This document shows positions 5,896 through 24,880 of a stretch of DNA of 64,000 nt, piece after piece (positions within the stretch are counted from its first letter, which is position 1; the number at the start of each line of letters is the position of its first letter). The notes beneath the pieces are model-generated. The model was given only the letters and a program-made list of their open reading frames with translations, had not been told where the DNA came from and searched no databases. The stretch comes from Poseidonibacter parvus (GTDB lineage Bacteria; Campylobacterota; Campylobacteria; Campylobacterales; Arcobacteraceae): NCBI RefSeq assembly GCF_001956695.1, contig NZ_CP019070.1:1116001-1180000 (forward strand). The letters are read 5' to 3'. The translations under genes were made by a program, and so were the position numbers.

Positions 5896-7725
5896 TTAAG
5901 TAAATACTCTTTTATTATCTATCTTTTTGATATTTGAAAAATTATCTAGATAGTCTAAATAAGTAACTAAATATTTTCTACTCATTGGAAATTTTGCTTT
6001 AAAGTTTGCAATATCAATATGTCCATCTTCTTTTATGATTTCTTTCATTTTCATAATGATATTATTTAAACTCTCAGCATGAATAAAAAGATTATGTTGA
6101 AGTCTAACTACATGTTTTTTAGCAGTTAAAGATTTTAAAATATCATCACCTAATTTTCTATCTAAGTCTAATTCATCATAAATATTATATGGTGCAGTTG
6201 GTGTAATATCTTCTTTTTTTAATCTAGCTAAAAACGAATCTTCTAGGTTTTTAGCAAAATTTTCTATTATGTTTGCATTTTTATATAAGTTATTATCTTT
6301 ACTTAAAAAACCTTCATTCTCAAGTTCATCTAGTGCTGCTTGAATAAAAGAAGTACTTGCCCATTTTAAACGAAGTGCTATTGAAGCATTTGAAAGTAGG
6401 GCATAATTGTTTTTTGTATAAATTTCTCTAATTGAATCTACAATTAACTCTTTTGTTTCAATTGGATAAATTACAAGCTCTTTTTCATCAATAAATACAT
6501 TTTCTAAATTTTTAGCAAATTCTATTGCTTCTGAGTGTGAAAGTGCAAATCTTTGAGCTGAAGATATTATTCCTAAGCCTTTTTTATGTGCTTGAAGCAG
6601 TTCATAATATGCATCTTTAAAGTTATTGTTTTCTAAGTGTTCTAAAAGTTGTCTTTTTTGATTTTTTTTCATTGGATCAATAATTGGATTTAAAACTTTT
6701 CCTCCACTTATAGTTTGATTTCCTTGTCGAATAATTAGTTTTTCTGCAAATATTGTAAAAAGCTTTTCATCTGCTTTAATAGTTGCAAATCCACTTTCAA
6801 GCTCTTGTGTTGAATCAAATAGTAAAATCTTTGCTTCAAGTTTTTTTGCACCTATAAATATTGTATATGATTTATTATGATGAAGTTTCTTTCCCTTTAA
6901 AGCTTTAAAAGAAATATCAATTTCATCAAAACCACGAACGTGACCTTTTTTTGTAATTAAATCACCTCTTTTGATATTTGAGCTATTTACACCTTGTAAA
7001 TTTAAAGCTGCTCTATTTGAGATATTTGCTTCAAGCACGTTTTCATTATGTACTTGAATATTTTTGATTTTTGATTCTTTTTGTGCTTCACAAATAAATA
7101 CTTTTTCATTTAATTCTAATTTTTTACCTAAAACAGTTCCCGTTACAACTGTACCAATACCTTTAGGAGAAAAAACTCTATCAACATAATATCTAAAGAA
7201 GTTTTCTTCTTGTTTCGTTGAGTTTTTAATAGTGAATAGATTGTTTTTTAGTTTTTCTATTGATTCAGATTCAAAGATTGAAACTTCTTGAGTAAATTTA
7301 ATATCAAAATCAAACTCATTTAAAAAAGCTAATGATTTTTCTTTTGTTTTTTCAAGCTCATCACTACTTACTAAATCACTTTTTGTAATAACTAAAATTA
7401 AGTTCTTGATTCCAAGTAAATTTATAATTTCAATATGCTCAACAGTTTGAGGCATAATTCCTTCGTACGCAGAAACAACAAGCATTACATAATCAAAACC
7501 AAAAGCACCTGCAATCATATTTTTTACAAGTTTCTCATGACCAGGTACATCAATAAAAGCAATATTTTGCTGTCCACGACTTAAATTTGAAAAAGATAAA
7601 TCAATAGTGATTCCTCTTTGTTTTTCTTCATTTGTAATATCACCTTCGTAACCATTTAGTGCTTTAATTAAAGCAGTTTTACCATGGTCAATATGTCCTG
7701 CTGTTCCTATAATTATATTTGCCAT
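5896..7725 (-). CDS. selB: Selenocysteine-specific translation elongation factor SelB
   Basis: SelB binds GTP and Sec-tRNA and delivers it to UGA codons marked by a SECIS hairpin. The 609-residue length is typical. The G domain is clear: G1 GTAGHIDHGKTALI (residues 7-20), the ITIDLSF switch, G3 DVPGHEKLVKNM, and TKSD (G4). Translation-factor domains II-III follow, with winged-helix domains at the C-terminus (about 390-609) that bind the mRNA hairpin. Its ATG overlaps the last base of selA. Two TGA-recoded genes in the window (selD, fdhA) are its expected clients. Confidence 0.97.
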   Translation of the reverse strand: MANIIIGTAGHIDHGKTALIKALNGYEGDITNEEKQRGITIDLSFSNLSRGQQNIAFIDVPGHEKLVKNMIAGAFGFDYVMLVVSAYEGIMPQTVEHIEIINLLGIKNLILVITKSDLVSSDELEKTKEKSLAFLNEFDFDIKFTQEVSIFESESIEKLKNNLFTIKNSTKQEENFFRYYVDRVFSPKGIGTVVTGTVLGKKLELNEKVFICEAQKESKIKNIQVHNENVLEANISNRAALNLQGVNSSNIKRGDLITKKGHVRGFDEIDISFKALKGKKLHHNKSYTIFIGAKKLEAKILLFDSTQELESGFATIKADEKLFTIFAEKLIIRQGNQTISGGKVLNPIIDPMKKNQKRQLLEHLENNNFKDAYYELLQAHKKGLGIISSAQRFALSHSEAIEFAKNLENVFIDEKELVIYPIETKELIVDSIREIYTKNNYALLSNASIALRLKWASTSFIQAALDELENEGFLSKDNNLYKNANIIENFAKNLEDSFLARLKKEDITPTAPYNIYDELDLDRKLGDDILKSLTAKKHVVRLQHNLFIHAESLNNIIMKMKEIIKEDGHIDIANFKAKFPMSRKYLVTYLDYLDNFSNIKKIDNKRVFT

Positions 7726-9071
7726 TACTTAAATACCTTTGTTATAATTGCTTCTATTTTATATATTTCATTCTCTTTTATACTTCTAAAATCAATTAAA
7801 ACTTTTTCATTTTCAATTCTTGTTATTAGATTCTCTTTTCTAAACATTTGTTCAATTTTATTTGCTTTATAATTTTTATATGAAATACTTAAAGCAACTG
7901 TAGGTATTTTTTTATTAGGAGTTGTTCCTCCACCTATAAGTGTTTGCGTATGAATAACTTCACATTCACAAATATCATTTATTGCTTCTTTTAAACTTCT
8001 AGCTCTTTTTTCTAATTCAATAACAGAAGTATTTAGCATTTTTAAAGTTGGTATGTCATCAAGTCTGTTTTCTAAATATGAAGTTAAATTATCTTCAAGT
8101 AGTGCAAGTGTTATTTTATCAACTCTTAGCATTCTTAAAAGTTGATTTTGTTTGATTTCTTCAATTAATTCTTTTTTACCTATAATTACACCAGCTTGAA
8201 CAGAACCTAGAAGTTTATCACCTGAGAAACTTAATAAGCTTGGATTATATTGCATGATTTTTAAAATTGAAGGTTCAGCCTGATCTAAATTAAAAGGCAA
8301 GTCAATCATATGTCCACTTCCCATATCATAGTAATCAATTACATTTTTTTCTTTTGCAATTTCTACAACTTCTTCATAAGGAACTTCTGAAGTAAATCCT
8401 TCTATTGTATAGTTTGATTTATGAACTTTCATAAGCATTGAAGTGTTTTCATTCACAGCGTTTCTATAGTCTTTTGGATGTGTTTTATTAGTAGTTCCTA
8501 TCTCTTTTAAAATAGCACCACTTTGACTCATTACATCAGGAACTCTAAAACTTCCACCAATTTCTACAAGCTCACCACGACTAACAACTGCTTCTTTATT
8601 TTTACAAAAAGTATTTAGTACTAAAAAAACTGCACTTGCATTGTTGTTTACAACAATTGCATCTTCACAACCTGTTAGTGCTTGAAGTGTTTTTACAATA
8701 TGAGAGTATCTTTCACCTCTTTTACCTTTTTCTAAATCATATTCTAAATTGTTATATGAAGTTGCTACTTTCATTGCTTTATTAAAACTCTCTTCATTTA
8801 TTAGTGATCGTCCTAAATTTGTATGAACAATAATTCCTGTTGCATTTATTACACTTTGAAGAGATGGAGATATTAATAAATTATATTTATTTATTACATT
8901 TTGAATAAGCTCTTCTTCATTTATTGCATCAATTTTATTATTTAAGATATCTTCTCTTAAATTAACTATTAATTCTTTTGATAACTTTGTTATAAGAGAT
9001 TTTGAAAACCCGTTAAACTTTTTGTTGTTGATAAACTTATCAACCTTTGGAATACTTTTTAGTAGACTCAT
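7725..9071 (-). CDS. selA: L-seryl-tRNA(Sec) selenium transferase SelA
   Basis: SelA is a PLP enzyme that converts Ser-tRNA(Sec) into Sec-tRNA(Sec) with selenophosphate. The 448 residues match the family. Visible marks are the N-terminal 'INATGIIVHTNLGRSL' block, 'NNNASAVFLVLNTF', the VSRGELVEIGGSFRVPDVM block, and SFSGDKLLG with the PLP lysine. It is the first gene of the minus-strand operon selA-selB-helicase-DUF3142-like-exported protein. Its start lies 57 bases from the 5' end of the divergent tRNA-Sec gene. Confidence 0.97.
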   Translation of the reverse strand: MSLLKSIPKVDKFINNKKFNGFSKSLITKLSKELIVNLREDILNNKIDAINEEELIQNVINKYNLLISPSLQSVINATGIIVHTNLGRSLINEESFNKAMKVATSYNNLEYDLEKGKRGERYSHIVKTLQALTGCEDAIVVNNNASAVFLVLNTFCKNKEAVVSRGELVEIGGSFRVPDVMSQSGAILKEIGTTNKTHPKDYRNAVNENTSMLMKVHKSNYTIEGFTSEVPYEEVVEIAKEKNVIDYYDMGSGHMIDLPFNLDQAEPSILKIMQYNPSLLSFSGDKLLGSVQAGVIIGKKELIEEIKQNQLLRMLRVDKITLALLEDNLTSYLENRLDDIPTLKMLNTSVIELEKRARSLKEAINDICECEVIHTQTLIGGGTTPNKKIPTVALSISYKNYKANKIEQMFRKENLITRIENEKVLIDFRSIKENEIYKIEAIITKVFK

Positions 9072-9127
9072 AATTAACTCTTTCAGATGGTTTTAAAACT
9101 AAATAATGTAAACTTCTACTTCAAAAG

Positions 9128-9227
9128 TGGGGGGTATGTGACCCTGGTGGGCACCGCAGGTTTCAACCCTGATCGGCGGTTTACGTGTGTACGCCGCGGT
9201 AGGTTCAATTCCTACACCTTCTCGCCA
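9128..9227 (+). tRNA. selC: tRNA-Sec (anticodon TCA)
   Basis: The gene has the features of bacterial tRNA-Sec: anticodon TCA at 9163-9165 between CAGG and CCTG; D-arm pairs GTG and CCC with GGG and CAC around a TGGT loop (9138-9153, one unpaired A); a long variable arm (CGGCG / CGCCG); T arm GTAGG-TTCAATT-CCTAC; and an encoded GCCA end at 9224-9227. The acceptor 3' strand ACCTTCTC would pair with the bases ending at 9135, giving 7 pairs, three of them G-U, and a T-C mismatch at position 1. The exact 5' end is therefore uncertain by a base or two. It lies directly upstream of selA in the opposite direction. Confidence 0.92.
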
Positions 9228-10904: not shown

Positions 10905-10982
10905 TTATTACACCTTTTAATTATGTTATCTTTAACTATGTGAAAAATAACTTAAGGAAAATGAATGAAAATAATAAAAAAA

Positions 10983-11004
10983 AGTTGATGTTTAAACATC
11001 AACT
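10983..11004 (-). terminator. Intrinsic terminator of selD
   Basis: A 22-base perfect palindrome (AGTTGATG-TTTAAA-CATCAACT) sits 20 bases beyond the selD stop codon. On the minus strand it is followed by a run of eight T residues. Confidence 0.85.
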
Positions 11005-11024
11005 CTTAATTTGAAGTAGTATTT

Positions 11025-12062
11025 TTAGTGAACTATAATATCTTTAGCACCTTTTGGTATAACTTCTCCAATAATAGAAGCATAACCTAAAGATAAATCT
11101 TCGATTTCTTTGATATATTCTTTAGCATCATTTCTATCCATGGCTATTAATAATCCTCCAGATGTTTGAGCATCACATAAAATAGTCTTACAATAGTTAG
11201 CTAATCCACTCATATATAAAACTTTGTCTTCCATATATTTCATATTCTTTTTTGTTCCTCCAGGAATTACATTATCTTCTGATAATGCAATTGCATCAGT
11301 TACTAAAGGAACAGCAGAACATTCAATAGAAAAAGATGTAAGTTCATTTACTGATTCTAAACTATGACCTAATAATCCAAAACCTGTAATATCTGTACAA
11401 GAACTTACATCATATTTTCTCATTATCTTTGATGGTAAGTAATTTAACGATGCCATAATATCAGCACAATGTCTCGCAACTTTTTCTTCTAATAAATCTC
11501 TTTTTATAGCTGTAGTTAAAATACCCATTCCAAGAGGTTTTGTTAAAATTAAAACATGACCTATTTTAGATGTGTTATTTCTTACTACATCATTTGGATG
11601 AATTATTCCTGTTACTGATAAACCATAATACATTTCTGGTGATTCAATTGTATGTCCACCTAATAAAAGTCCACCACATTCTTTTATTTTTTCATTTCCA
11701 CCATTTAGGATTTCACCTAAAGCTTCTGAAGATAGGTTTTTCTTATCAAATCCAACAATGTTTAAAGCTGTTTTTACTTCAGCTCCCATCGCAAAAACAT
11801 CTGATAATGAATTAGCTGCTGCAATTTGTCCATAAATATATGGATCATCTACAACAGGAGTTATAAAATCTAATGTTTGAACAATGGCTTGGTCTTCATT
11901 TATTTGATAAACACTAGCATCTTCTGCTGTGTCAAATCCTACTAAAATTTTTTCATCTTTTGGAGAAAGATTACAAAGAGTTTGTTTAAGATCCCCCGGA
12001 CCCATCTTTGCAGCTCATCCAGCAGCTTGAACGAATTTAGTTAGTTTATATTCGTTGTTCAT
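11025..12062 (-). CDS. selD: Selenophosphate synthase SelD, itself a selenoprotein (TGA at codon 16)
   Basis: SelD makes selenophosphate from selenide and ATP. An open frame without recoding would begin only at MGPGDL (12005). Upstream in the same frame, an ATG at 12062, preceded by GAGGAAAT, gives MNNEYKLTKFVQAAG, then TGA at 12017-12015, then AAKMGPGDL. SelD enzymes carry Cys or Sec exactly there, before the AAK(M/I)GPGDL loop, so the TGA is selenocysteine 16 of 345 residues. The ATP-binding LLLGGHTIE block and the C-terminal CDAQTSGGLL block are present. The full selenium machinery in the window supports recoding. Confidence 0.95.
11985..12017 (-). promoter_or_regulatory. Sec TGA codon and putative SECIS hairpin of selD
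   Basis: The TGA is at 12017-12015 on the minus strand. Just downstream, AAGAT and ATCTT can form a 5-bp stem closing an 11-base G/C-rich loop that contains GGTCCGGGG. G/C-rich codons such as CCG GGG are rare in this AT-rich genome, so they are probably kept for RNA structure. The hairpin has not been folded computationally. Confidence 0.6.
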
Positions 12063-12216
12063 TGATTTCCTCTTTTAGATTTTTTTCTTATTTGTGGATT
12101 TTACATCTTTTTATTTTAAATAGTTATTAATAAAGAGTAAAAAGTAAAAAAAAATTTACCATTTAATCTTTTGTTTACTATTCATATTGTATTATTTCGT
12201 ACAAAATAGCATTTAG

Positions 12217-12304: not shown

Positions 12305-13150
12305 ATGAAAAAAATACTTATTTCATTCTTAGTACTTTCATCAGTACTATTTTCACAAACATTTACTTTCACAGCGATTCCAGATCAAGATGAAACTAAA
12401 TTAAAAGAAAGATTTTCAAAATTAGCTGTTTATTTAACAAAAGAGTTAAATGTAGACGTTAAATTTGTTCCAGTTAAGTCATACTCAGCATCAATTGCTG
12501 CGTTTAGAAACAATCAAGTTCAATTAGCATGGTTTGGTGGATTATCAGGTGTTAAAGCTAGATTAATCGTTCCTGGTTCTGTTGCAATTGCACAAGGTGT
12601 TGAAGATCCAGAATTTCATTCTTATATCATCGCAAATTCATCAACTGGCTTAGAAAAAAGTGAAGCATTCCCAGCAGGAATTGCAGATAAAACATTTACT
12701 TTTGGTTCAAAAGGTAGTACAAGTGGTAGATTAATGCCAGAATATTTCATCAGAGAAAATATGAAAAAAGCTCCAAATGATTTATTTAAAAAAGTTGGTT
12801 TCTCTGGAAATCATACTAAAACTATTTCACTAGTTCAAAGTGGTGCTTATGAAGTTGGTGCCGTAAACTTTAAAGTATGGGATAGAGAGCTTAAAGCTGG
12901 AAATATTGATACTTCAAAAGTAAAAGTTTTATGGAAGACTCCTGCTTATCCTGATTATCAGTTCACAGCTCATGGTAACTTAGATGAAGTTTATGGTGCT
13001 GGATTTACTACTAAACTTACAAACGCATTATTAAATTTAAAAGATAAAGCAATCTTAGATGCATTCCCAAGAGCTGCATTTATTAAAGCTAAAAATGCTG
13101 ATTTTGACCCAATTTTAAATGTTGGAAGAAAAATAGGTTTAATAGACTAA
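12305..13150 (+). CDS. Putative selenate/phosphonate-type ABC transporter substrate-binding protein
   Basis: The 281-residue periplasmic protein starts with a signal peptide (MKKILISFLVLSSVLFSQ). It has the PhnD-like fold order: FTAIPDQDETKLKERFSKLAVYL, FVPVKSYSASIAAFRNNQVQLAWFGGLSGVKAR, then FTFGSKGSTSGRLMPEYF. This is the type defined as a 'putative selenate ABC transporter' binding protein (TIGR04553) on the basis of frequent location near selD. Here it lies divergently next to selD, which fits selenium uptake. Phosphonate or phosphite import cannot be excluded from sequence alone. ATPase and permease genes follow at once. Confidence 0.8.
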   Translation: MKKILISFLVLSSVLFSQTFTFTAIPDQDETKLKERFSKLAVYLTKELNVDVKFVPVKSYSASIAAFRNNQVQLAWFGGLSGVKARLIVPGSVAIAQGVEDPEFHSYIIANSSTGLEKSEAFPAGIADKTFTFGSKGSTSGRLMPEYFIRENMKKAPNDLFKKVGFSGNHTKTISLVQSGAYEVGAVNFKVWDRELKAGNIDTSKVKVLWKTPAYPDYQFTAHGNLDEVYGAGFTTKLTNALLNLKDKAILDAFPRAAFIKAKNADFDPILNVGRKIGLID

Positions 13151-13155
13151 TTATT

Positions 13156-13815
13156 ATGGCATTTTATTTACAAAATGAATCTATTTCATATTTTGATACA
13201 GTAATCTTAGACTCTTTATCTTTAGAGATAAAAAAAGGAGAAAAGGTTGCTTTATTAGGTAAAAGTGGAAGTGGTAAATCCACACTTATAAAAAGACTTT
13301 ATGAACTTAAAAAAGATGAGTCTTCATATATTCCACAAGAATTAGGTTTAGTAAATAATTTGTCAGTTTTTCATAATGTCTATTTAGCAAGATTAGATGA
13401 TTATTCAACTTTTTATAATATTAGAAATCTAATCAAACCAGCTTCAAAAGAAGTTGAACAAATCAAGAATATACTTATTGATTTTGATTTAGAAGATAAG
13501 ATTTTTGTAAAAAACCATGACTTATCAGGTGGTCAAAAACAAAGATCAGCAATTGCAAGGTCAATTTATAATCAAAAAGATATCTTATTAGCTGATGAGC
13601 CTATATCTGCTTTAGATGAATATCTAAGTTCAAAAGTTCTAGAAGTTTTAAATCAAAAATTTGAAACAATTGTTTGTGCCTTACATAACGTTGATTTAGC
13701 AGTAGAGCATTTTGATAGAGTAATTGGTCTTAAAAATGGAAAAGTACTTGTTGATAAGAAATGTACTGAATTAACAAATGAAGATAGACAAAAGTTATAT
13801 TATGTCTGTGACTAA
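13156..13815 (+). CDS. ABC transporter ATP-binding protein (PhnC-like)
   Basis: This 219-residue ATPase has Walker A GKSGSGKST (about 36-44), signature LSGGQKQRSA, Walker B DILLADEP and a His-loop VCALHNVD. It is shorter than most PhnC proteins (about 250), with a compact helical region. It starts 5 bases after the binding-protein stop and overlaps the permease start. It should energise the uptake system encoded by its neighbours. Confidence 0.9.
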   Translation: MAFYLQNESISYFDTVILDSLSLEIKKGEKVALLGKSGSGKSTLIKRLYELKKDESSYIPQELGLVNNLSVFHNVYLARLDDYSTFYNIRNLIKPASKEVEQIKNILIDFDLEDKIFVKNHDLSGGQKQRSAIARSIYNQKDILLADEPISALDEYLSSKVLEVLNQKFETIVCALHNVDLAVEHFDRVIGLKNGKVLVDKKCTELTNEDRQKLYYVCD

Positions 13816-15283
13816 AAATACTAAAGTTTCTATATTATTCATTTTTATAGGAATTCTTTCTTTTATTCTTGCTGATTTAGAAGTATCAACTGTTGATACA
13901 ACTCAACTTACAAAAGATTTTTTTTATTCTATTTTTGATTTGAAATTTAATGATTATTCAATTTTATTTGATGCATTTTTAAATACTATTTCAATTGCAA
14001 TATTAGCAATATTTTTCTCTTCTATTATTGGATTTTTTTTAGCACTGTTTTTTAATTTTTTATTAGTGCGAATTTCATTAGCAATTACAAGAGCAATACA
14101 TGAACTTTTTTGGGCTTTAATTTTTTTACAAATATTTGGTCTTAATACATTAACAGCATTACTAGCAATTGTAATACCATATAGTGCGATTTTAGGAAAA
14201 GTATACGCAGAAATACTTGAAGAGCATGATACCTTTCCTAAAGTTTTACGAGGTAAAGATGCCTTATCTTACTTTTTATTTACAAAAATACCCGATGCTT
14301 TCCCACATTTAGTATCTTACACACTTTATAGATTTGAGTGTGCTTTACGTTCAACTGCTATTTTAGGTTTTGTTGGAATTACAACACTAGGTTATTATTT
14401 ATCATCATCATTTATGCAAGGAATTTATTCTGAAGTATGGATGATTTTAATTTCGTTTTATATTGTAATTGCAACTATTAAATATTGGTTTACAAAATAT
14501 TCTTTTCCTTTTTTAGTTATTGCTTCATTTTTTTATTTAGATGATTTTAAAGGTTTTAATCTTGATAATTTAATTAGATTTGTTACAAATGATATTGTCC
14601 CTCATCCAATTAGAAATGACCTAGGTTTTGAAAAAACTCTTTCTTGGTTTTCAAATATTTTTACAAATGAGATAGTTCCTGGAACGATTAATACAATTGT
14701 TTTAACGCAATTATCACTTGTTCTAACAGCAGTTTTAGCTTTGATTTTATTTCCATTATTATCACAAAAATTTGTTTCAAAACCTACAAGGGTTTTAAGT
14801 CATATAGTTTTAGTAATACTTCGTTCAACTCCTGAGTATATATTAGCTTATATTTTCTTACAGCTTTTTGGTCCTTCAATGCTTCCTGCAGCTTTAGCTC
14901 TTATGCTTCATAATGGTTCAATTATTGGGCATTTAATGGGTAATGAAACGACTTTAATTACTTTAAGAGCTGGGGTAAGTAAAAAAAGAATTAATCTTTA
15001 TTTTTATGAAATAATGCCAAGAGTTTATAATCAGTTCTTAGCTTACCTTTTTTATAGATGGGAAATAATTATGAGAGAGAGTGCGATTTTAGGTATTTTA
15101 GGAATTGCTACATTAGGTTTCTTTATTGATTCTGCTATTGCAGATTTTAGACTCGATAAGATGTTTTTACTTTTAGTTGTAACGGCATTGTTAAATATAC
15201 TTGTAGATTTAATCTCAAGAAAAGTAAGAGCTTATTTAAGAGTTGATGAAAACATTACATCTTGCGGATGTTCTTTGAAGTAA
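13802..15283 (+). CDS. ABC permease with two fused PhnE-like domains
   Basis: The likely start is the ATG at 13802, inside the end of the ATPase gene (an in-frame ATG at 13778 is farther in). The 493-residue protein has two homologous membrane halves. Each carries an EAA-type loop: 'ILGKVYAEILEEHD...LRGKDALSYFLFTKIPDAFPHLVSYTLYRFE' in the first and 'IIGHLMGNETTLITLRAGVSKKRINLYFYEIMPRVYNQFLAYLFYRWE' in the second. Each then has an R(S/E)(T/S)AILG(F/I)(V/L)GI turn. One polypeptide can thus provide both permease subunits. It ends in ITSCGCSLK, a Cys-Gly-Cys tail of unknown use. Substrate is inferred from selD proximity. Confidence 0.85.
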   Translation: MSVTKNTKVSILFIFIGILSFILADLEVSTVDTTQLTKDFFYSIFDLKFNDYSILFDAFLNTISIAILAIFFSSIIGFFLALFFNFLLVRISLAITRAIHELFWALIFLQIFGLNTLTALLAIVIPYSAILGKVYAEILEEHDTFPKVLRGKDALSYFLFTKIPDAFPHLVSYTLYRFECALRSTAILGFVGITTLGYYLSSSFMQGIYSEVWMILISFYIVIATIKYWFTKYSFPFLVIASFFYLDDFKGFNLDNLIRFVTNDIVPHPIRNDLGFEKTLSWFSNIFTNEIVPGTINTIVLTQLSLVLTAVLALILFPLLSQKFVSKPTRVLSHIVLVILRSTPEYILAYIFLQLFGPSMLPAALALMLHNGSIIGHLMGNETTLITLRAGVSKKRINLYFYEIMPRVYNQFLAYLFYRWEIIMRESAILGILGIATLGFFIDSAIADFRLDKMFLLLVVTALLNILVDLISRKVRAYLRVDENITSCGCSLK

Positions 15284-15338: not shown

Positions 15339-15698
15339 ATGAATGAAGTTATGAACAAAGATTACGAACCTGTAGAAGTATTTGATTATGCACAATATCA
15401 AAAAGATATGGAAGCAAAAATAGTTAGAAATCCACGAACAAATACACCAATTGATTATATTTCAGATGAAAAATTAGCACAATTAGAAAAAGATGGAATT
15501 ACAGATTTTAGACCTTATATTCCAGTTCCAAAAGATATTAAAGCTCATTTATTATTTGCTGTAAATATTTGGATTAAATTAACTAAAACATACCCAAATG
15601 ATGAGTATCTAAAAAGCTTAGACAATGAAGCTAATCATCATATTGTATTATCTTATGATTGGTATAAAAAGTTTGGAGTTGATAAACCAGTGCTTTAG
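15339..15698 (+). CDS. Conserved hypothetical protein
   Basis: This is a 119-residue soluble, acidic protein (MNEVMNKDYEPVEVFDYAQYQ...). There is no signal peptide, membrane segment or cysteine. A YIPVPKDIKAHLLFAVNIWIKL helix block and a NHHIVLSYDWYKKFG block near the C-terminus are the most distinctive parts. It is 55 bases after the permease and may be in the same transcript. I do not recognise the family. Confidence 0.6.
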   Translation: MNEVMNKDYEPVEVFDYAQYQKDMEAKIVRNPRTNTPIDYISDEKLAQLEKDGITDFRPYIPVPKDIKAHLLFAVNIWIKLTKTYPNDEYLKSLDNEANHHIVLSYDWYKKFGVDKPVL

Positions 15699-22048: not shown

Positions 22049-24880
22049 ATGTCAGCAAATACATATGAAACTCTAAATGCAAAGGTAGGAAGACGGTCAT
22101 TTATGAAAATGGCTGCGGTTGCTACTGCATTTGGTGTTACGTCTTCTTTTGCTAGTACAAATGCAACTAGAAAAGCTACAGAGGAAGAGATTAAAAATCC
22201 ATTCCCTGGTTCAAAAATGGTGAAAACTGTTTGTACAGCTTGTTCTGTTGGTTGTGGTGTAATAGCAGAAGTACAAAATGGCGTGTGGGTAAGACAAGAA
22301 GTTGCTCAAGATCACCCTGTATCACTTGGAGGGCACTGCTGTAAAGGTGCTGATATGATTGATATGGTTAGATCAGAAGTAAGACTTAAGCATCCAATGG
22401 TTAAGAAAGATGGACAATGGAAAAGAATTTCTTGGGATGAAGCTTTAGATGGTATTGCTTCAAAATTAGAAGATCTTAGACAAAAAGATGGTCCAGATTC
22501 AACAATGTTTTTAGGATCAGCAAAATTCGGTAATGAGCAATCATATTATTACAGAAAATTTGCTGCAATGTTTGGAACTAATAATATAGATCACCAAGCT
22601 AGAATTTGACATAGCTCAACAGTTGCCGGGGTGGCAAACACATGGGGTTATGGTGCTATGACAAATTCTTTAGGAGATATTCAAAATTCTAAAGCGATAA
22701 TTATTTTTGGAGCAAATCCAGCAGTAAATCATCCAGTAGGGTTCCAACATTTCTTAAAAGCAAAAGAAAGAAATAACACAAAGATTATTGTAGTAGATCC
22801 TAGATTTACTAAAACAGCAGCAAAAGCTGATTATTATGCACAAATTAGACCTGGTACTGATATTCCATTTATGTATGGAATGTTAAATATCATCTTTAAA
22901 AATAATTGGCATGATAAAAACTTTATCAACGATAGAGTTTTTGGTATGAAAGATATCATGGAAGAGGCTAAAAATTGGCCTATTGAAAAAGTTGCAGAAG
23001 TAACGGGTGTTGATGCAGATTTAATTGTACAAATTACTAAGCATTACGCACACAATACACCAGGTACATTAATTTGGGCTATGGGATTAACGCAACACAC
23101 AAATGGTACTTCTAATACAAGAATGGCTCCAATTTTACAATTGGCACTTGGTAATATGGGTGTTGAAGGTGGTGGAACTAATATTCTTAGAGGTCATGAT
23201 AATGTTCAAGGTGCAACTGATTTTGGTTGTTTAGCTGATTCATTACCTGGTTATTATGGTTTATCAGAAGGTTCATGGAAATACTTCGCTTCTTCATGGG
23301 GTGTAGATTTTGATTGGCTTCAAGGTAGATTTAAAGATCCTTCATGGATGGGTAAAAAAGGTTTCACATTAGCTAGATGGTGGGCTGGTGTACTTGGTGA
23401 AAATGAAGGCGAAGATGCAATTCACAATGCAGGAACAAGATTAAAAGCTTTATTTGTTATGGGTAATGGTATTACATCAACTGCACAAACAAAAAAAGTT
23501 AAAGAAGCTCTAGATAACTTAGACATTGCAGTATTCTGTGATCCATTTGTTAATGAGGGTGCTATTATAACTGATAAGCAAAATGATGTGTATATTTTAC
23601 CAGCAGCTACTCAGTTTGAAACAAGCGGTTCAGTAACAGCTACAAATAGATCTGCTCAATGGAGAGATAAAGTAGTTGAACCAATGTTTGAATCTAAAAC
23701 AGATGAAGACATTATGTTTGAATTAGCAAAAAGACTTGGATTCTATGATGAATTTACAGCTGGTATGAAAATGAATGATGATAAAAAAGATTTCAAATGG
23801 CCAGAAGATGCAACAGATGAGATAGCTAGAATTATCAAAACTATTGGATTAACAGGTTGGACAGCTAAAAGATTAAAAGCACACCAAGAAAATTGGCACA
23901 TGTTTGACGAAGTAACTTTAAGAGGTTATGGAGATATGACTGGTGAGTACTATGGTTTACCATGGCCTTGTTGGACAGAAGGACATTCAGGAAGTCCAGT
24001 ACTATACAATATTAACAGAAGTGTTAAAGAAGGTGGTATGGGATTCAGAAACAGATTTGGTATGGAAAGAGATGGTGAGAATTTACTAGCTGGTAAAGGT
24101 AGTGCACCAAAAGCTTCAAGTAACAAAGATGGATATCCTGAAATTAATAAAGATAACATTGAAGCTGTTTTAGGAATTACTTTAACAGAAGATGAGAAAT
24201 CTAGAATTGGTAAAAACTGGAAAGTTGATAAATCAAATATTATTGCTGAAAAATGTATGGAAGCTGGAATAGCTCCTTATGGAAATGCAAAAGCAAGAGC
24301 AAAAGTATGGGGATGGGCAGATGAGATTCCAAAACATAGAGAACCTCTACATTCGCCTAGAACAGATTTAACAAAAGATTATCCAAGTTTTGCAGATAAG
24401 CCAAATCACTGGAGAGTAGATACAAGATATATTTCTGAGCAAACTAAACAAGATTGGGCAAAAGATTTCCCAATTAACCTTGTAACAGGAAGACTTGTAA
24501 ATATGAATGGTGCTGGTATGGAAAATAGAGCATCTAAGTATCTTGCAAAATTAACACCAGAAATGTTCTGTGATATTAATCCAGATTTAGCTGGTAGATA
24601 CGGAATTAGAGATGGTTCAATGATGTGGATTCATTCACCTCAAGGAACTAAAATTAAAGTAAAAGCACATTATTCTTATTCAGTTAGTCCTGATAGAATA
24701 TTTATTCCAATTCACTTCGCAGGTGTAATGGAAGGTGAAAGTTTACTTCATAAGTATCCTGATGGAACTGCTCCTTATGCTACAGGTGAGAGTGCAAATA
24801 CTGTTACTAACTACGGTTATGACATTGTTACTCAAATACCTGAGACTAAGGGTGGATTATGTCAGATATCAAGAGTGTAG
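22049..24880 (+). CDS. fdhA: Formate dehydrogenase catalytic subunit FdhA, selenoprotein (TGA at codon 187)
   Basis: FdhA oxidises formate at a Mo/W-bis-pterin centre in the periplasm. A frame that stops at the TGA at 22607-22609 would give only 186 residues. The frame continues without a break to 24880, giving 943 residues in all. The sequence around the TGA reads NIDHQARI-U-HSSTVAGVANT, the known Sec (or Cys) metal-ligand site of formate dehydrogenases. The N-terminus has a TAT signal (GRRSFMKMAAVATAF) and a 4Fe-4S motif (CTACSVGCGV...HCCKG). Molybdopterin-binding blocks follow (GMGVEGGGTNILRGHDNVQGATD; near the end GRLVNMNGAGMENRAS). Ribosome site AAAGGAG precedes the second of two close ATGs. 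Confidence 0.97.
22607..22645 (+). promoter_or_regulatory. Sec TGA codon and SECIS hairpin of fdhA
   Basis: The TGA at 22607-22609 is followed 12 bases later by GTTGCC (22622-22627), loop GGGGT and GGCAA (22633-22637). These form a short stem with a G-rich apical loop, the layout SelB needs just after UGA. As in selD, the loop codons (CCG GGG GTG) are unusually G/C-rich for this genome. Confidence 0.75.

Follow-up and report, generated by a model that had tools for sequence, protein, structure and literature searches.

Read with standard codons, the selD gene of the window (the whole 64,000-nucleotide stretch of DNA analysed here) appears to lack its catalytic loop. A preliminary description had proposed that the frame instead begins further upstream and crosses a TGA at codon 16, making SelD itself a selenoprotein that could gauge its own selenium supply. 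The question raised by this locus is whether that TGA is a selenocysteine (Sec) codon or a stop and, if it encodes Sec, whether the self-dependence of SelD amounts to regulation.

The selD frame and its catalytic column

The gene occupies a single minus-strand frame, 12062..11025, which runs from an ATG at 12062 to a TAA stop at 11025-11027 and is interrupted once, in frame, by TGA. Its features are as follows:

12069..12074, minus strand: ribosome site AGAGGA, 6 nt upstream of the ATG at 12062 (sequence; purine-rich sites in relatives)
11025..12062, minus strand: selD, selenide water dikinase (TIGR00476, PDB relatives 3u0o and 2yye, read-through translation)
12015..12017, minus strand: predicted Sec codon, the in-frame TGA at codon 16, in the column of E. 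coli Cys17 (translation, alignments)
11989..12003, minus strand: predicted bacterial SECIS apical hairpin, GGGUCC-GGG-GGAUCU (folds; 67/67 core pairs)
10980..11007, minus strand: terminator-like hairpin 3' of selD (pattern scan; on its own no evidence of function)

The frame reads MNNEYKLTKFVQAAG-TGA-AAKMGPGDL... up to the TAA, giving a read-through product of 345 aa with a predicted Sec16. This product matches TIGR00476 over residues 6-312 (E 7e-107, 357 bits, cut-off 125) and, as the match starts at residue 6, the family profile spans the TGA. A search of the genome found this one copy and no second SelD. The sequence thus agrees with the preliminary description on the in-frame TGA at codon 16 (12017-12015), on a ribosome site ahead of the ATG at 12062, which is AGAGGA at a spacing of 6 nt, and on a start at MGPGDL under standard codons, the listed frame being 326 aa long from an ATG at 12005. 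A purine-rich site also precedes the selD ATG in most of the relatives shown.

In the alignment with E. coli SelD (3u0o), residue 16, encoded by the TGA, falls on Cys17 and Lys19 falls on Lys20. E. coli SelD belongs to the same family and shares these active-site residues; it differs in having Cys at the site, so that no SECIS is needed, and its Cys19 is Ala here. D51, D68 and D91 of E. coli SelD, which we take to be the ATP/metal Asp residues, all align to Asp in the phmmer alignment. The loop of Aquifex aeolicus SelD (PDB 2yye, 2zod) is nearly the same, reading SSG-C-AAKVGPGDL in the crystallised construct where this gene has AAG-U-AAKMGPGDL; the stretch aligned with the TGA residue in 2yye is SSGCAAKVGPGDL. 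The crystallised chain carries Cys where the TGA stands in our gene, and its native residue is presumably Sec. The N-terminal loop U16-A-A-K19 is an intact example of the published SelD motif UxxK (PMC9312934), with both the catalytic Cys/Sec and the Lys present. An alignment that places the TGA outside the conserved Cys/Sec column, which the preliminary description had named as grounds for abandoning its reading, does not occur: the codon stands on that column, at the position of E. coli Cys17, as the description had claimed.

Sec machinery, codon 16 in relatives and the internal start

The genome contains the full Sec gene set (SelA, SelB and SelC) required for a bacterial selenoprotein. The corresponding genes, together with a second UGA-containing candidate, a transporter and a small protein, lie in the window:

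5896..7725, minus strand: selB, Sec-specific elongation factor (TIGR00475, E 5e-88)
7725..9071, minus strand: selA, Sec synthase (TIGR00474, E 5e-168)
9127..9223, plus strand: tRNA-Sec, selC (Rfam RF01852, 47.8 bits; ARAGORN)
12305..15283, plus strand: ABC transporter, divergent from selD (TIGR04553, 370.9 bits, cut-off 250; TIGR01097)
15339-15698, plus strand: 119-aa protein, downstream of the transporter
22049..24880, plus strand: fdhA-like gene with one in-frame TGA, the second candidate selenoprotein gene (open frame with TGA read as U)

Of the 22 genomes searched, most gave relatives of fdhA with one TGA. The transporter comprises a substrate-binding protein of a putative selenate family (12305-13150), an ATPase (13156-13815) and a fused double permease (13778-15283), and the placement of a putative selenate transporter beside selD recurs in several relatives. 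We rejected the idea of a new selenium transporter next to selD, as the binding protein falls in the already named family TIGR04553. The 119-aa protein gave no match in Pfam or NCBIfam; near relatives keep it in the same place at 88-94% identity.

SelD was present in 75 of the 104 same-family genomes searched, a few of these being weak partial matches only, and its nearest named relatives are from Poseidonibacter. Across 77 distinct orthologous genes with more than 60% identity, codon 16 was TGA in 58, TGT or TGC in 18 and TTA (Leu) in one. The 15 codons upstream of the TGA are kept as protein among relatives. Given this protein-level conservation and a TGA or Cys codon at position 16 in 76/77 orthologues, the TGA in selD is not a chance occurrence.

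Were the UGA a true stop, translation would start at the internal ATG and yield a shortened protein that lacks both Sec16 and Lys19. The 326-aa standard frame that this ATG opens is the likely choice of automatic annotation, and a truncated product as the only one detected was the other outcome that the preliminary description had set against its own reading. Such a product would lack the residues that define SelD activity, in a genome that has no other SelD yet retains selA, selB, tRNA-Sec and a TGA-containing fdhA, and the conservation of the 15 codons before the TGA also argues against it. The internal ATG is itself not a conserved feature: of 68 Sec genes, 53 have ATG as codon 20 and the remaining 15 have TTA, CTA, TTG, GTG or GCA. 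Since this codon is not ATG in about one fifth of related Sec genes, we rejected a start at MGPGDL and consider truncation extremely improbable. The UGA of selD very probably specifies selenocysteine at the catalytic site, and the 326-aa frame, which begins past the catalytic residue, is a likely annotation error that the read-through frame corrects.

The hairpin downstream of the UGA

The sequence that follows the UGA of selD is GCUGCAAAGAUGGGUCCGGGGGAUCUU. In our folds GGGUCC pairs with GGAUCU and the GGG loop starts 18 nt past the UGA. The published model of the bacterial SECIS places the apical loop 16-37 nt after the UGA with a G within the first two loop positions (PMC13188914), and the selD hairpin lies within these limits for both loop distance and loop G. 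When folded as a single sequence, the hairpin region showed no extra stability over shuffled sequence (z -1.16), and so the case for a SECIS rests on comparison.

We compared the hairpin across 67 distinct Campylobacterota Sec-selD sequences in a gap-free alignment. The core pairs 16-28, 17-27, 18-26 and 19-25 were all formed in 67/67 Sec genes, and RNAalifold recovered the identical stem unprompted. Both sides had changed in 13 cells of the hairpin pairs, against a shuffled mean of 1.9 and with 0/500 shuffles as high; among these compensatory changes is G-U to C-G where GPGD becomes APGE in the protein. Codon choice follows the same region: in Sec genes codon 21 was GGT in 58/58 and codon 22 was NCG in 58/58, and CCG made up only 22/694 of the other Pro codons of these AT-rich genes. 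A nine-codon scan for synonymous conservation gave no significance for the Sec genes.

By analogy with the known family, we infer that SelB carrying Sec-tRNA-Sec would bind the hairpin just 3' of the UGA and that the complex would place Sec in the flexible N-terminal loop of SelD, as residue 16. Sec16 would then act with Lys19 to activate selenide. Taken together, the frame, the alignment column, the covarying hairpin and the complete Sec gene set make the protein almost certainly an ordinary Sec-containing selenophosphate synthetase, with Sec predicted at residue 16 under the direction of SelB and the hairpin.

Only one prokaryotic selenoprotein is more widespread than SelD. In a 2015 survey Sec-SelD accounted for 19% of prokaryotic SelD genes, with Sec always at this position (PMC4561486). 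The closest described system is the Sec-SelD of Epsilonproteobacteria (Cravedi et al. 2015, PMC4607533), where the SECIS region around the SelD TGA was analysed; enzyme, Sec site and selABC context are the same, and although the genus here is another, we found no difference in kind. As Sec-SelD, Sec-to-Cys changes in SelD (PMC1794560) and remnant SECIS structures are all on record, the Sec-SelD described here is an already known, well-documented enzyme form and no new discovery. The selD of this window adds a clean case to that class.

Sec, Cys and unusual SelD genes among relatives

Among close relatives SelD has changed between Sec and Cys several times, with SelA and SelB retained. On a quick protein tree, from which direction was not inferred, the state at this site (Sec, Cys or Leu) has to change 9 times. 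SelA and SelB were kept in all Cys-SelD genomes examined, and these genomes carry formate dehydrogenase genes interrupted by a single in-frame TGA; two genomes (G235 and G285) each have one FdhA copy with the TGA and one without.

These switches bear on the suggestion in the preliminary description that SelD, through its Sec codon, could act as a self-limiting gauge, in which low selenium would give less SelD and hence less Sec synthesis. This hypothesis could be added to the Sec-SelD explanation. It follows from the logic of a circuit in which SelD both belongs to the machinery and is itself a selenoprotein (PMC4607533), and Guimaraes et al. 1996 (cited in PMC8659212) already put autoregulation as a question in their title. 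However, Cys-SelD relatives operate the Sec system without self-dependence, the 9 state changes on the tree speak against a gauge, and the self-dependence could equally be a tolerated cost. Repeated switches to Cys with the Sec system retained indicate that such a loop is at least dispensable, and we regard the gauge as unlikely. With this set of Sec/Cys switches among genomes that are otherwise alike, the old question of autoregulation would become testable.

The otherwise rare SECIS-like codons CCG GGG are retained in several Cys-SelD genes (L019, L020, L022, L024, L025, L030, L056, L143 and others). Such retention could be explained if the hairpin had a role beyond UGA decoding, for example in SelB-dependent control of selD mRNA. 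Pro22 is CCG in 16/18 Cys genes against 1/190 other Pro codons, and of the 74 four-fold columns in a 10-member Aliarcobacter Cys clade, only those of codons 22 and 23 have a G/C majority. Under a fitted neutral model, however, the per-site probability that an ancestral G persists in at least 8 of the 10 clade tips is about 0.19. Cys homologues with remnants of a SECIS structure have also been reported before (Zhang 2006, PMC1794560). The hairpin is lost in two clade members, L026 and L029, whose genomes keep both SelA and SelB, and we accordingly rejected a tie between hairpin retention and SelB presence. The nine-codon synonymous scan was likewise not significant for the whole Cys clade or the full Cys sets, and became so only on removal of the two hairpin-loss genes, a biased choice. 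An additional role of this kind therefore seems very unlikely. We give slightly less credence still to a reversible Sec/Cys switch module in Arcobacteraceae, in which the hairpin would be kept after a change from UGA to Cys, permit flipping back and forth and possibly serve as a SelB-bound regulator of selD.

Two further genomes carry unusual SelD genes. In G226 (contig PKUJ01000020.1) the position of the Sec codon is taken by TTA (Leu) in the sole SelD; the gene lies at L173:6062-7096 and is found again in L023 and L055, the three loci being apparently one contig. This genome keeps SelA, SelB, tRNA-Sec and three TGA-containing FdhA genes, and the divergence of its Leu-SelD by codon position resembles that of its neighbours. 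A genome that encodes selenoproteins is reported to have a SelD of the Sec or Cys type (PMC4561486), and the Leu-SelD, if correct, would depart from this rule; as it comes from a single metagenome assembly, a real departure is no more likely than an assembly error or a recent mutation. The second genome, G244, has no SelA and no SelB orthologue, and its FdhA is without TGA. It encodes an intact SelD relative of 343 aa (L167:6071-7102) in which the catalytic residues are lost (no Cys/Sec, GGH, DITGFG). Third codon positions are still the most changed in this gene, which may be slowly decaying or may encode a bacterial SelD pseudoenzyme.
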